Part shown: piece after piece, positions 22,551-27,711 of the stretch
How the letters are laid out: every line of letters begins with the position of its first letter
How positions within the stretch are numbered: position 1 is the first letter of the stretch
Source: a bacterium
GTDB taxonomy: Bacteria; Electryoneota; AABM5-125-24; Hatepunaeales; Hatepunaeaceae
DNA length: 64,000 nt
Assembly (NCBI GenBank): GCA_021734165.1
Contig: JAIPJL010000002.1
Location: 1-64,000, forward strand
Direction: 5' to 3'
Position numbers and translations under genes: made by a program
Notes under the pieces: generated by a model
Database searches by the model: none
Told to the model about the DNA's origin: nothing
Seen by the model: only the letters and a program-made list of their open reading frames with translations

Positions 22551-25034
22551 ATGACAAACAGACTTTCCTTCCGAGTACAACAGGTACTTCGTTATTCACG
22601 TGAAGAGGCTCTTCGTCTGGGACATGATACAATCGGCACCGAACACCTGCTGATGGGTATTATGAGACTTGGTGAGGGACTTGCGATTCGAATTATTTCC
22701 AATCTCGGCTGCGATCTCGATGATCTGCGTGAAACACTTGAAGAAACAGTTGGTCCAGCATCAACATCGGTTAAAATTGCTGATATTCCGTTTACAAAAA
22801 GGGCTGAACGCGTACTAAGGATGTCGTATCTCGAAGGCAAACAGTACAACAGTGAATTGATCGGCACCGAGCATTTATTGTTATCTTTAGCAAAGGATGA
22901 AGATGGTATTGCCAGTCAGGTATTAGCTGGGTTCAATATTCGATATGATAACGTTAAGAACGAGCTTGAAGGATTATTGAGGGAAGGTTTAAATGATCCT
23001 AAACGCAATAAAGTCGGCGCTGATGTTAGTAGTGAGAAAAAGAGCAAAACCGCTGTGCTTGATCATTACAGCCGCGATTTAACTGCCCTTGCACGAGAGA
23101 AAGAGTTAGATCCGGTCATTGGCAGAGACAAGGAGATCGAGAGAGTCGCTCAGATTTTATCGCGGAGGAAGAAAAATAATCCTGTTTTAATTGGTGATCC
23201 CGGAGTCGGAAAAACAGCGATTGTAGAAGGCTTAGCGTTAAGAATAGTACAACAGAAAGTTTCTCCAATACTTTTCAACAAACGCGTTGTTATGCTTGAT
23301 CTTGGTTCGCTTGTAGCAGGAACAAAATATCGTGGTCAGTTTGAAGAGCGCATCAAGGCAATTATTGCAGAACTTGCTAAGAATAAACAGGTTATAATTT
23401 TCCTTGATGAGATGCACACTATTGTAGGGGCTGGTTCAGCATCCGGTTCACTCGACGCTTCAAACATGTTCAAACCTGCTCTTGCGAGAGGCGAACTACA
23501 GTGTATTGGGGCGACTACTCTTAATGAATATCGTCAATATATCGAAAAAGACGGAGCGCTTGAACGTCGATTCCAGAAGGTGCTTATTGAAGCTCCCACA
23601 GTTGAAGAAACCGTTGATATATTAAATGGTCTTAAGGAACGTTACGAGCAGCACCACAGTGTTATTTATACTCCGGAGGCTATTACTACGGCTGTAACAC
23701 TTTCTGATCGTTACATAACTGATCGCTTTTTACCGGATAAAGCTCTTGATGTAATGGATGAAACAGGATCCAGAGCAAGATTACAGAATATTAAAATACC
23801 TGATGACTTGGTTGATCTGGAAAAAGAATCTGAAAGACTTTCATGTTCAAAAGAAACTCTCGTTAAAAACCAGGAATATGAAAAAGCGGCTAAGGTCAGA
23901 GATCAAAAACGCCGGCTTGATGAATTACTGAAAATTAAAAGAGATAATTGGGAAAGCTCTACACGGGAAAAACCAATCGAGCTTCATGCAGATCATGTTG
24001 CTGAAGTGGTAGCAATGATGACCGGTATTCCGGTAACGCGGGTCGTTGTATCTGAATCTGAGCGTTTGCTCAGAATAGAAGAAGAGATTTCCAAGAGCAT
24101 TATCGGTCAGGATGATGCAATAGTGGCAATAGCACGTTCTATCAGACGTAATCGCGCCGGTTTATATAAGCGAAATCGTCCAATTGGTTCATTTATATTT
24201 CTGGGACCATCCGGAGTAGGGAAGACTGAAACAGCTAAAATACTTGCTGAATTCCTGTTTGAAGACGCCAATGCCCTGATTAGAGTTGATATGTCTGAAT
24301 ATATGGAAAAATTCAACGTGTCACGTTTAATTGGAGCGCCTCCGGGATATGTTGGATATGATGAAGGCGGTCAATTATCAGAGCGAGTCCGGCGTAAACC
24401 TTATTCCATAGTACTTCTTGATGAAATAGAAAAAGCGCATCAGGATATTTTTAATGTTCTTTTACAGGTGCTTGACAACGGCTCATTAACGGATGGTACA
24501 GGTAGGATAGTTGATTTCAAGAATACCATTCTAATAATGACTTCAAATCTGGGTACTCGCGAAGCAAATAAATCTAAGAGTTTTGGCTTTTCAGATACAA
24601 GTGAAAGTACCGATCAGAATTACAAGAGAATGTCCGATAAGATGACGACTCTGATGAAGGAAGTATTTCCACCGGAGTTTATCAATCGAATTGATAATAC
24701 TGTTGTGTTTCATAGACTTTCACGAGATAATGCTTCTGATATTGCGGACATTTACATTAAGGAAGTTGAGGAGAGACTTGCCGAGCAGAATGTGATTCTG
24801 AACATAACTCCTGAAGTTAAAGAAGAGATACTCAATGAAGGTTTCAGTATTGAAACCGGAGCGCGCACATTAAGAAGAACCGTCGAAAGGATTATTGAGG
24901 ATAAACTCGCAGAAAGAATGCTTAAAGGCAAGATTAATTCAGGATCAAAAGTTACAGCATCAATGCTTAAGGATAAGGTTGTTTTTAACGTAGCAGATGC
25001 AGTAACCGTACAAGAAGAGATTGAAAAAATCTGA
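22551..25034 (+). CDS. clpC: ATP-dependent Clp protease ATP-binding subunit ClpC
   Basis: Double Clp-N repeat, two AAA+ modules ([27 protein letters not shown]), UVR-like middle domain, C-terminal D2-small domain. Confidence 0.96.
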
Positions 25035-25065
25035 AGTTTGCTTTGATTTTATATTTGTTTAATTG

Positions 25066-25094
25066 AAAGGGATGGTCAAGAAACCATCCCTTTT
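25066..25094 (+). terminator. Rho-independent terminator after clpC
   Basis: AAAGGGATGGT-caagaa-ACCATCCCTTTT. Confidence 0.88.
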
Positions 25095-25158
25095 CTACTT
25101 GATTTATATTTGTGTTATTATTAACTTAAATTAACAAACATTTATGGAGTTGTATTTT

Positions 25159-25950
25159 ATGAGTTTAACAATCTCATTACTAATCCCTGATGGAATTGTA
25201 TTAGCTGCTGACAGCCTTGCTGCTACAAAAAGCGGTTTTCAATTCATTGGAGATTTAGATGTAAAATGTCCAGAGTGCAATAAGGAATTTCCAATAGAAA
25301 ATCTCCAATTGCCACCTCTTCCTGTAACAAGCTCTACAATGATTGTTCAGAAAATGACATCTTTAATTACTGAAGACGAAAAACACTCTATTGGCATTGC
25401 AACATATGGGATTGGTATTTTAAATGAAATGACAATATACAATCATATCAGAATCCTTAACAAGAAAATACTGTTTAGAAGTATTACAGATGCTATTGAC
25501 AAGATTATTGAATATTTCTCCGGTCAATTAGAAAAACATTTTGGAGATCTAAGTAATCTACCCGATGATTTTTATCCAATTGGATTTCATATAGTTGGAT
25601 ATGAAGATGACAACCCAAGAACATTTTTAGTACATATAGGAAAAGAGGTGAGAACAGAAGTTATTGATAAGATTGGCTGCACTTATGGCGGGCAGGGCTT
25701 CTTGATTGAAAAAATTTGGGAATTACATAAACAAACACCACAACTTCAGATCATATACGAGAGTTTATCCCTACAGGATGCTATTGATCTTGCCGAGTAT
25801 CTAATAAATGCAACGGGTGATTTCTATCGTTTTTCTAACATGATACCTGAAGTAGGTGGTGATGTTGATGTTGCATTGGTTACGAAATACTCAGGCTTTA
25901 AGTGGATTAAATGTAAAACTTTAACAAAAGTAATTGAAGCGGATCGATAA
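25159..25950 (+). CDS. Proteasome/HslV-like Ntn hydrolase with CPxC insertion
   Basis: MSLTISLLIPDGIVLAADSLAAT (proteasome-beta-like N-terminus), VKCPECNKEF insert, IVQKMTSLI...GIATYG, IGFHIVGYEDDNPRTFLVHIG; ATG at 25159 preceded by GGAG SD. Confidence 0.65.
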   Translation: MSLTISLLIPDGIVLAADSLAATKSGFQFIGDLDVKCPECNKEFPIENLQLPPLPVTSSTMIVQKMTSLITEDEKHSIGIATYGIGILNEMTIYNHIRILNKKILFRSITDAIDKIIEYFSGQLEKHFGDLSNLPDDFYPIGFHIVGYEDDNPRTFLVHIGKEVRTEVIDKIGCTYGGQGFLIEKIWELHKQTPQLQIIYESLSLQDAIDLAEYLINATGDFYRFSNMIPEVGGDVDVALVTKYSGFKWIKCKTLTKVIEADR

Positions 25951-25960
25951 GGAGAAAGAA

Positions 25961-26179
25961 ATGGAATTAAAACAGAATAACACAAAATACAATCTCCATA
26001 TTCCTGAAGTGCAGATGAAGACTATCAGGATATTGCAGTCACGTCCAGTTTTGGAGTATTCTGGATCTGATTATACACTGGAAGGAAGAACCGGTAATAA
26101 TACGAATCAGCCTAAATCTCTAATAGATAAGATAATGGATCGTTACAAAGATACTTGGGAAACATTAGCAAAATTATGA
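25961..26179 (+). CDS. Small protein, candidate antitoxin of the downstream Doc-like toxin
   Basis: GGAG SD at 25951-25954, ATG at 25961, ends in a TGA overlapping the Doc ATG (ATGA at 26176-26179). 72 aa; no recognised family. Confidence 0.65.
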   Translation: MELKQNNTKYNLHIPEVQMKTIRILQSRPVLEYSGSDYTLEGRTGNNTNQPKSLIDKIMDRYKDTWETLAKL

Positions 26180-26583
26180 TCAAGTATCCCACGCGAGAGG
26201 TTATTATTGAATTAAATAGAAAAATGACCCTCAAACACGGGGGTCATTGCTCTTTTCATGACGATAATCTTCTTAATCTAAATTCCTTTGAATTCCTGTT
26301 AGATGCTCCTCGATCTGAGTATTTTGGAGAGGAGATGTATCCTGATATTTTTCAGAAAGCTGCTGTTTACTGCTACTTCATCATCAAGGATCATGTGTTT
26401 CACGACGGGAATAAGCGAACTGGAATAAGTGTTACAATATGGTTATTGGAAGAGAATAACTATAGGGCTCAACCTTCACTAACGAAAGATGTTTTAATTG
26501 AGTTAGCCATCTCAATTGCTAACAATAAACTGGAAATTCCTGACATTGTAGACACCCTTAAGCAGCATTTCAAGCAAGTCTGA
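26176..26583 (+). CDS. Doc/Fic-family toxin
   Basis: MIKYPTREVIIELNRKM...; HVFHDGNKRTGISVTIWLLEENNY matches the Doc/Fic HxFxxGNKRT core. Confidence 0.88.
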   Translation: MIKYPTREVIIELNRKMTLKHGGHCSFHDDNLLNLNSFEFLLDAPRSEYFGEEMYPDIFQKAAVYCYFIIKDHVFHDGNKRTGISVTIWLLEENNYRAQPSLTKDVLIELAISIANNKLEIPDIVDTLKQHFKQV

Positions 26584-26589
26584 CAAGTT

Positions 26590-27711
26590 CTAATCCATCA
26601 TTCCCAGTGCTAATTCAGCAACTCTGACCGTAGCGCCTCCTTCTCCAAGCGACTCTTTAACAGCTCTATAACCATTCTGAATTTCTGATTTCTTCTCAGA
26701 AGAGTGTAAAATTTGATTTAAAGAATTTACCAGATTTTGAGCTGTCAAATCGTGCTGGATAAGTTCCGGTACAATCTTCTTTCCTGCAGTAACATTCACT
26801 AATGCGATATTTTTCAGCTTGATCAGTCGTTTAGCAAGGATGTAATTTAAGGTGGACGTTCGATATACTACAACCTGAGGAATATTTAACAAAGCCGCTT
26901 CAAGCGTTGCTGTTCCGGAACATACTGCTGCAATTGACGCCTGTTTTAGTAATTGTTTGCTATCATTAAACAAAATAAGTCTCTCATGTTCTCTGACAAA
27001 TGTTTTATATAAACTGGATTTAATTTCAGGAGCGCAACCTATACCAACAGACAGATTAGTATCCTTGCTTAAAAGCATTTCAGCAGCCTTTATCATGATA
27101 GGTAAATGACGACGGATTTCCTGCTCACGGCTGCCAGGCAGCAATGCGAGTAAATTTGCTTTATCATTATTAACCTCTGTATCAGAAGAATACTTACTAA
27201 GCTCATCAATCAATGGATGACCCACAAATTCTACATCCACTCCACCCCTGCGGAAAATGTCCAACTCGAACGGGAAAACAACTGCCATTTTATCAATGAT
27301 GCGCTTAATAAGTTTTATCCTTCCCGCTCGCCATGCCCAGACCTGCGGAGCGATATAATGCAGTATTTTAGGTGGATTATTAAGTTTCTTAAGCGCTCCG
27401 GCAAGATTGAGATTGAAGCCAGGGTAATCAACAAGTATCACGAGACGAACATTGTGTGATTTGACAAATTTAAGTATTGATTTTTTCAGTTTAATGAGCT
27501 TAGGCAGCATCTGAATGATTCCACTGAAACCCATTACCGCTAATTCATCTATATCAGCGAGGAGATGAACTCCTTCATTGCTCATCTGAGGCCCACCTGT
27601 GCCTGTGAAGGTAAGATTAGGATTTAACTTTTTCATCTCGGCAACAACCGGCGCAGCATGGAGATCACCCGAAACTTCACCGGCAATGATCAATATTTCT
27701 TCAGTTTGCAT
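26590..27711 (-). CDS. lpxB: Lipid-A-disaccharide synthase
   Basis: IIAGEVSGDLHAAPV, GTGGPQMSNEGVHLL, HYIAPQVWAWRAGRIKLI, LLPGSREQEIRRHLP. Confidence 0.96.
   Translation of the reverse strand: MQTEEILIIAGEVSGDLHAAPVVAEMKKLNPNLTFTGTGGPQMSNEGVHLLADIDELAVMGFSGIIQMLPKLIKLKKSILKFVKSHNVRLVILVDYPGFNLNLAGALKKLNNPPKILHYIAPQVWAWRAGRIKLIKRIIDKMAVVFPFELDIFRRGGVDVEFVGHPLIDELSKYSSDTEVNNDKANLLALLPGSREQEIRRHLPIMIKAAEMLLSKDTNLSVGIGCAPEIKSSLYKTFVREHERLILFNDSKQLLKQASIAAVCSGTATLEAALLNIPQVVVYRTSTLNYILAKRLIKLKNIALVNVTAGKKIVPELIQHDLTAQNLVNSLNQILHSSEKKSEIQNGYRAVKESLGEGGATVRVAELALGMMD

Follow-up and report, generated by a model that had tools for sequence, protein, structure and literature searches.

Doc toxins halt translation through phosphorylation of EF-Tu. 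In the Phd-Doc and MazE-Doc (TasAB, PMC1626090) systems, a Doc protein carrying the Fic motif is encoded directly downstream of its antitoxin, the two genes overlap translationally and the antitoxin bears a C-terminal tail. Involvement of a protease gene in a toxin-antitoxin (TA) operon was predicted by Makarova et al. 2009 (PMC2701414), who proposed a three-component system of a COG2856 zinc protease and Xre; there, RelE or PIN toxins share their operon with the protease gene, and cleavage of the antitoxin or repressor was the predicted role of the protease; the words proteasome, HslV and Ntn are absent from that paper. Proteasome homologues of the type considered here have already been described by Fuchs, Alva and Lupas 2021 (PMC8665760). 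They are spread over bacteria, archaea and phages and combine the proteasome-beta fold and the residues Ser/Thr1-Asp17-Lys33 with the lack of a propeptide and with insertions at the S3/S4 and H3/H4 sites, the S3/S4 insertions belonging to connectase, PMI-5 and PMI-6; neither genomic context nor co-occurrence was reported to give a hint of their function. In the literature other than preprints, no earlier report of a proteasome-like peptidase within a TA module was found.

The locus investigated here shares with Phd-Doc and MazE-Doc the Fic-motif Doc, the position of the probable antitoxin directly upstream, the translational overlap and the C-terminal tail. It differs from both in that this antitoxin lacks a recognised DNA-binding domain and that a gene for a proteasome-like peptidase comes first. 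Compared with the COG2856-Xre systems, it contains a predicted Ntn hydrolase instead of a zinc protease and, in place of the Xre repressor, a putative antitoxin that is predicted to be disordered and not to bind DNA. Its peptidase resembles the homologues of Fuchs et al. 2021 in fold, catalytic residues, lack of a propeptide, insertions and distribution but, unlike in that account, is followed by a TA antitoxin and exchangeable toxins. The locus was interpreted as a horizontally acquired three-component TA module whose dedicated proteasome-like peptidase would act on a disordered antitoxin without a DNA-binding domain (probability about 0.6). The elements of this reading that the analysis shows are the fold, the intact catalytic residues, the recurrence, the toxin exchange, the common antitoxin tail and the insertion site.

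Layout of the locus and insertion site

An ORF survey of the window (the whole stretch of 64,000 nucleotides that was analysed) revealed three plus-strand genes with the clpC terminator on one side and a convergent lpxB on the other. The features are listed below; homologue counts refer to a set of 93 non-redundant gene 1 sequences.

22551..25034, plus strand: clpC, upstream neighbour outside the module (ORF; abuts lpxB in three genomes of the same family)
25065..25094: intrinsic terminator of clpC, isolating the module (12-bp stem, then T-rich sequence)
25159..25950, plus strand: gene 1, proteasome-beta-like Ntn hydrolase, 263 aa (AlphaFold, Foldseek, family profile)
25159..25164, plus strand: Met1-Ser2 of gene 1, predicted N-terminal nucleophile freed by methionine removal (Ser/Thr at residue 2 in 93/93 homologues)
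25267..25278, plus strand: CPEC half zinc knuckle in the S3-S4 insertion of gene 1 (CPxC here in 21/93 homologues; strands from the AlphaFold model)
25351..25353, plus strand: Lys65 of gene 1, counterpart of proteasome Lys33 (invariant, 93/93 homologues)
25961..26179, plus strand: gene 2, probable antitoxin, 72 aa (C-terminal tail common to Doc antitoxins)
26135..26176, plus strand: C-terminal tail of gene 2 predicted to neutralise Doc, MDRYKDTWETLAKL (motif xx[ATV][WLF]xxL[AS])
26176..26583, plus strand: gene 3, Doc toxin, 135 aa (Fic, DOC_P1, PDB Doc structures)
26223..26248, plus strand: terminator-like hairpin inside the doc ORF (10-bp stem and T-rich tail)
26392..26424, plus strand: Doc-type Fic motif HVFHDGNKRTG (from the sequence; invariant positions across Doc homologues)
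26590..27711, minus strand: lpxB, convergent neighbour outside the module (ORF; homologues in 9/9 genomes of the family)

The original prediction of three tightly packed genes bounded by the clpC terminator and lpxB was correct in its gene coordinates, in the 10 bp gap and in the ATGA overlap. An AAGGAG sequence preceding gene 2 across this gap overlaps the stop codon of gene 1, and the ATG of gene 3 at position 26176 lies within the overlap with gene 2 (26176-26179). Coupled translation of adjoining antitoxin and toxin genes is typical of type II TA systems; here the ATGA overlap provides it, and the homologues are similarly coupled. A second possible start of gene 1 is an ATG at position 25144; position 25159 was chosen because of the spacing to GGAG and the logic of an N-terminal nucleophile. 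A search for an operator palindrome yielded only a 14-nt inverted repeat, 79% complementary and with 63 nt between its arms, which straddles the clpC terminator.

In three genera of the same family (G002, G004 and G005), clpC and lpxB are direct neighbours without the module, so that the copy in the window is most readily explained as an insertion of approximately 1.5 kb that was acquired. Sites of this kind, empty for the module and with clpC adjoining lpxB, were recorded in same-family genomes as L158, L159 and L160.

Predicted structure and residues of the three proteins

Single-sequence searches with gene 1 against Pfam, NCBIfam and PDB yielded no convincing family. Its AlphaFold2 model (pLDDT 91.6) matched proteasome beta subunits in Foldseek, with a best E of 2e-8, a probability of 1.00 and 580 matches at E <= 0.001. 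A profile of the 42-member gene 1 family matched proteasome beta chains in PDB weakly (E 0.007), and Pfam Proteasome (PF00227) was matched by 4 of the 42 members (best 1e-4). An alpha-beta-beta-alpha Ntn fold of the proteasome-beta type, as read from the sequence in the original prediction, could be confidently predicted from the model. HslV, Anbu and BPH are likewise bacterial proteasome-like peptidases of this fold, and we know of no TA partner for any of them; gene 1 differs from them by an additional insertion with CPxC between S3 and S4. With Met1 removed, alignment places Ser2 at the proteasome nucleophile, Asp18 at Asp17 and Lys65 at Lys33. Asp18 is conserved in 90 of the 93 homologues, and the predicted triad Ser2/Asp18/Lys65 is intact in the window.

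All 21 homologues with CPxC fall in or beside the clade of the window. A zinc ribbon (Pfam 0.02) was rejected, as the insertion contains merely one CPxC half knuckle. Two close CPxC-bearing homologues (L010 and L014) are directly followed by tmk and have neither a small partner nor a toxin. The site between S3 and S4 at which gene 1 has the CPxC insertion is that of the specificity element in connectase. Compared by insertion sites only, gene 1 most likely represents a PMI-type subfamily of the homologues described by Fuchs et al. 2021.

Gene 3 could be identified as the Doc toxin that had been recognised in the sequence at the outset. It matched Pfam Fic (PF02661, 4e-12) and NCBIfam DOC_P1 (TIGR01550, 8e-16), its nearest solved structures in a PDB sequence search were Doc proteins (including 3k33, 3dd7 and 3kh2) and HVFHDGNKR conforms to the Doc-type motif HxFx[DN][AG]NKR. 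In PADLOC, it resembled candidate PDC-S23 proteins in their Fic part. The hairpin inside the doc ORF was also found in the two other Electryoneota copies (L002 and L005) at the matching position, 44-49 nt after the start, and thus in 3/3 copies; it was missing from six other Docs examined. Codon shuffles of doc produced 0.00-0.04 such hairpins per gene. Judged from its sequence, the hairpin may serve as a conditional attenuator, keeping toxin transcripts limited except during translation of doc.

Gene 2 gave no match in Pfam, NCBIfam or PADLOC and contains no recognised DNA-binding domain. It had been noted to occupy the antitoxin position without resembling Phd, and this description stands: the gene lies directly upstream of doc, and an assignment to Phd was rejected, there being no Phd family match in Pfam or NCBIfam and the N-terminal half being modelled as disordered. 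In an AlphaFold2 model computed with 8 relatives, residues 1-50 were of low confidence and helices were placed at residues 54-61 and 63-71; the protein is predicted to be mostly disordered, with a 50-residue N-terminal half lacking a fold. Its tail, KDTWETLAKL, fits the C-terminal pattern xx[ATV][WLF]xxL[AS], Doc-linked tails being summarised as ..AW..LA.L. The motif was present in eight of the nine gene 2 proteins from loci combining the Ntn hydrolase with Doc, and the ninth (L049) ends similarly in RYESVMERLS. MazE-type Doc antitoxins (L133, L137 and L144; Pfam MazE_antitoxin) carry the same motif. Among background frames it occurred in 39 of 6403, mostly in ORFs upstream of Doc. Because this tail is common to other Doc antitoxins, gene 2 is very probably a Doc antitoxin, one in which no DNA-binding part can be recognised, and by sequence likeness the tail represents its putative toxin-binding segment.

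No alignable motif was found in the disordered half of gene 2 across toxin classes. Beside ParE-like toxins, a HicB-like stretch was visible by eye in gene 2, for which Pfam gave no match, and tyrosine-rich patches (EYQ, NYS), likewise seen by eye only, recurred in the small partners of toxin-less loci. A plasmid search with the gene 2 of one PIN-linked locus gave no match. At other loci, Doc homologues are directly preceded by proteins with TIR or TPR domains. The TIR-domain protein at L130 (854-1468) ends in a tail resembling that of Doc antitoxins, the TPR proteins at L131 and L132 have similar ends and L153 likewise belongs to these loci; such proteins are possibly a family of sensor-antitoxin fusions.

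Recurrence of the gene order with exchanged toxins

According to the original prediction, co-occurrence of all three genes in unrelated genomes would support a system. The genome of the window falls in Candidatus Electryoneota, the phylum that also contains Candidatus Tariuqbacter arcticus. The Doc-bearing set was found in two copies in a second Electryoneota genome (L002 and L005), and furthermore in KSB1 (L003), Zixibacteria (L007), Spirochaeta of the Spirochaetota (L008), a bacterium (L009) and two viral contigs (L047 and L049), so that it does recur in unrelated phyla. In the homologue set, which was seeded with the gene 1 protein of the window, with the phylum of G076 over-represented and few genomes contributed by the phyla centred on G200 and G354, gene 1 was followed by a recognised type II toxin in 27 of 93 cases. 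Doc accounted for nine of them; the other 18 are:

PIN: L020, L024, L059, L075-L078
ParE: L019, L033, L039
ParE-like: L083-L085, L087, L090 (ParE_like 2e-6)
YoeB: L074 (4e-28)
PemK/MazF: L022, L118 (Pfam PemK; second PemK 1e-10)

The toxin of L039 was assigned through its similarity to L033, and those of L075, L076, L078, L084, L085, L087 and L090 by phmmer similarity to relatives confirmed in Pfam. L033 and L039 are nearly identical, though binned as Clostridium and Methanosphaera, possibly as a result of misbinning. Five more of the 93 homologues had a different third gene. In two of them (L063 and L117), the proteasome-like gene and a gene for a protein of about 80 aa were followed by homologous small membrane-hairpin proteins, perhaps membrane toxins; in the other three (L079, L080 and L081), the toxin position was occupied by a gene for a protein of about 140 aa without a recognised family, here termed X3.

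The objection that gene 1 homologues occur mostly without Doc applies family-wide, but the idea of a linked system survives it in that the others listed above carry another type II toxin. Since the order is kept in the nine homologues with Doc and the 18 with other type II toxins, the arrangement of gene 1, gene 2 and toxin is beyond chance. TA genes are mobile and common, and an orphan peptidase might accordingly have come to lie beside an ordinary TA pair. ORFs were chosen by one rule on either side of gene 1, 129 downstream and 98 upstream. Pfam detected Fic (8), PIN (6), PemK (2) and ParE (1) among the downstream ORFs, while the 25 families listed for the upstream ORFs, besides which there were eleven weaker ones, contained no toxin family; three antitoxin-like or HEPN matches were among the upstream families. 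With toxin seeds, themselves drawn from downstream genes, phmmer gave 32 downstream matches and none upstream. A chance neighbourhood is highly improbable and was ruled out by this upstream control together with the conservation of the order and its recurrence in several phyla and with several toxin families. When 386 genomes were searched for Doc, the top four hits (E below 1e-60) all adjoined gene 1, whereas the next, at about 1e-27, had another partner. Nothing was found when the Doc alignment was searched against viral contigs, and searches of plasmids and phages gave short partial matches only.

A maximum likelihood tree of 87 rows required 16 changes of the third-gene label; for presence or absence of the third gene alone 12 changes were needed, nine of them forced by well-supported branches. 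Each of Doc, PIN and MazF appeared more than once, with three, three and two changes, respectively. About two thirds of the gene 1 homologues have no recognised toxin, and many of these consist of two genes (the peptidase and a protein of 45-80 aa) or of gene 1 alone, indicating that the peptidase has a function independent of the toxin. The two-gene form, a proteasome-like gene with a polar protein of 45-80 aa, was observed at L025, L030, L034-L038, L040, L044, L045, L048 and L106-L113.

The peptidase and its small partner might therefore be an independent two-gene system, which recruited TA toxins with antitoxin tails as addiction genes against loss and exerts no proteolytic control over them. 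The frequent toxin changes on the tree agree with this, as do the toxin-less forms, common in Alphaproteobacteria, Paenibacillus and viral contigs and also present in Nitrospinota. In toxin-linked loci, however, the antitoxin is the small gene adjoining the peptidase and not an extra gene, and a third gene is found in 19 of the 22 members of the clade of the window (16 with a recognised toxin, three with X3), so that a purely addictive role of the toxins was considered quite improbable.

Candidate role of the peptidase

In the three-component module favoured here, the Doc encoded by gene 3 would be the poison, neutralised by gene 2 through its helical C-terminal tail. Gene 1 would be a dedicated Ser/Asp/Lys peptidase, whose active site is free after removal of Met1 and which attaches to the disordered half of gene 2, either singly or after assembling itself into a ring, and stays latent. 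Upon a stress or infection signal, gene 1 would degrade gene 2 without ATP, and Doc would be set free. Peptidase and small partner gene would make up a constant chassis, on which the toxin and the fitting antitoxin tail are exchanged. We infer the contact between gene 1 and gene 2, the direction of the proteolytic effect, the trigger and the benefit as parts of this model. It is general knowledge, discussed also in PMC8665760, that proteasomes of the 20S type degrade disordered proteins without ATP; since gene 2 is predicted to be disordered, its regulated destruction is the simplest reading.

The peptidase could also act in the opposite direction as part of the antidote, either stabilising gene 2, comparable to the SecB-type chaperone in tripartite TA systems, or clearing free toxin, so that loss of gene 1 would free Doc. 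The order peptidase-antitoxin-toxin and its tight coupling are consistent with such a role, and gene 2, so short and disordered, would hardly be stable by itself; as it has no recognised DNA-binding domain, gene 1 may supply the missing function. Among toxin-linked members, however, Ser/Thr2 is kept in 32/32, Asp18 in 31/32 (the remaining one has Glu) and Lys65 in 32/32. A pure chaperone would have no need of these catalytic residues, and their conservation argues against it; moreover, no conserved tail of the chaperone-addiction type was found. Membership of gene 1 in the antidote is unlikely, and destruction of gene 2 by the peptidase is preferred.

The odds are about even that the module belongs to a widespread class of proteasome-coupled TA systems that extends over bacteria, archaea and phages and whose peptidase would replace both Lon/Clp in antitoxin destruction and the DNA-binding module of the antitoxin, forming a switch with exchangeable toxins. 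Many prokaryotic proteasome-like families are without a known function, and the paper describing them found no gene context. The repeated link to several unrelated toxin families points to a testable role, in which an antitoxin would be either destroyed under control or protected. That the protease persists in related cassettes of unrelated microbes while the toxin varies suggests a TA system of a little-known type with a built-in protease. If this is true, such a TA design would place the gene of the switch protease beside that of its own substrate, and the long-debated degradation of antitoxins would become directly testable in a three-gene system.
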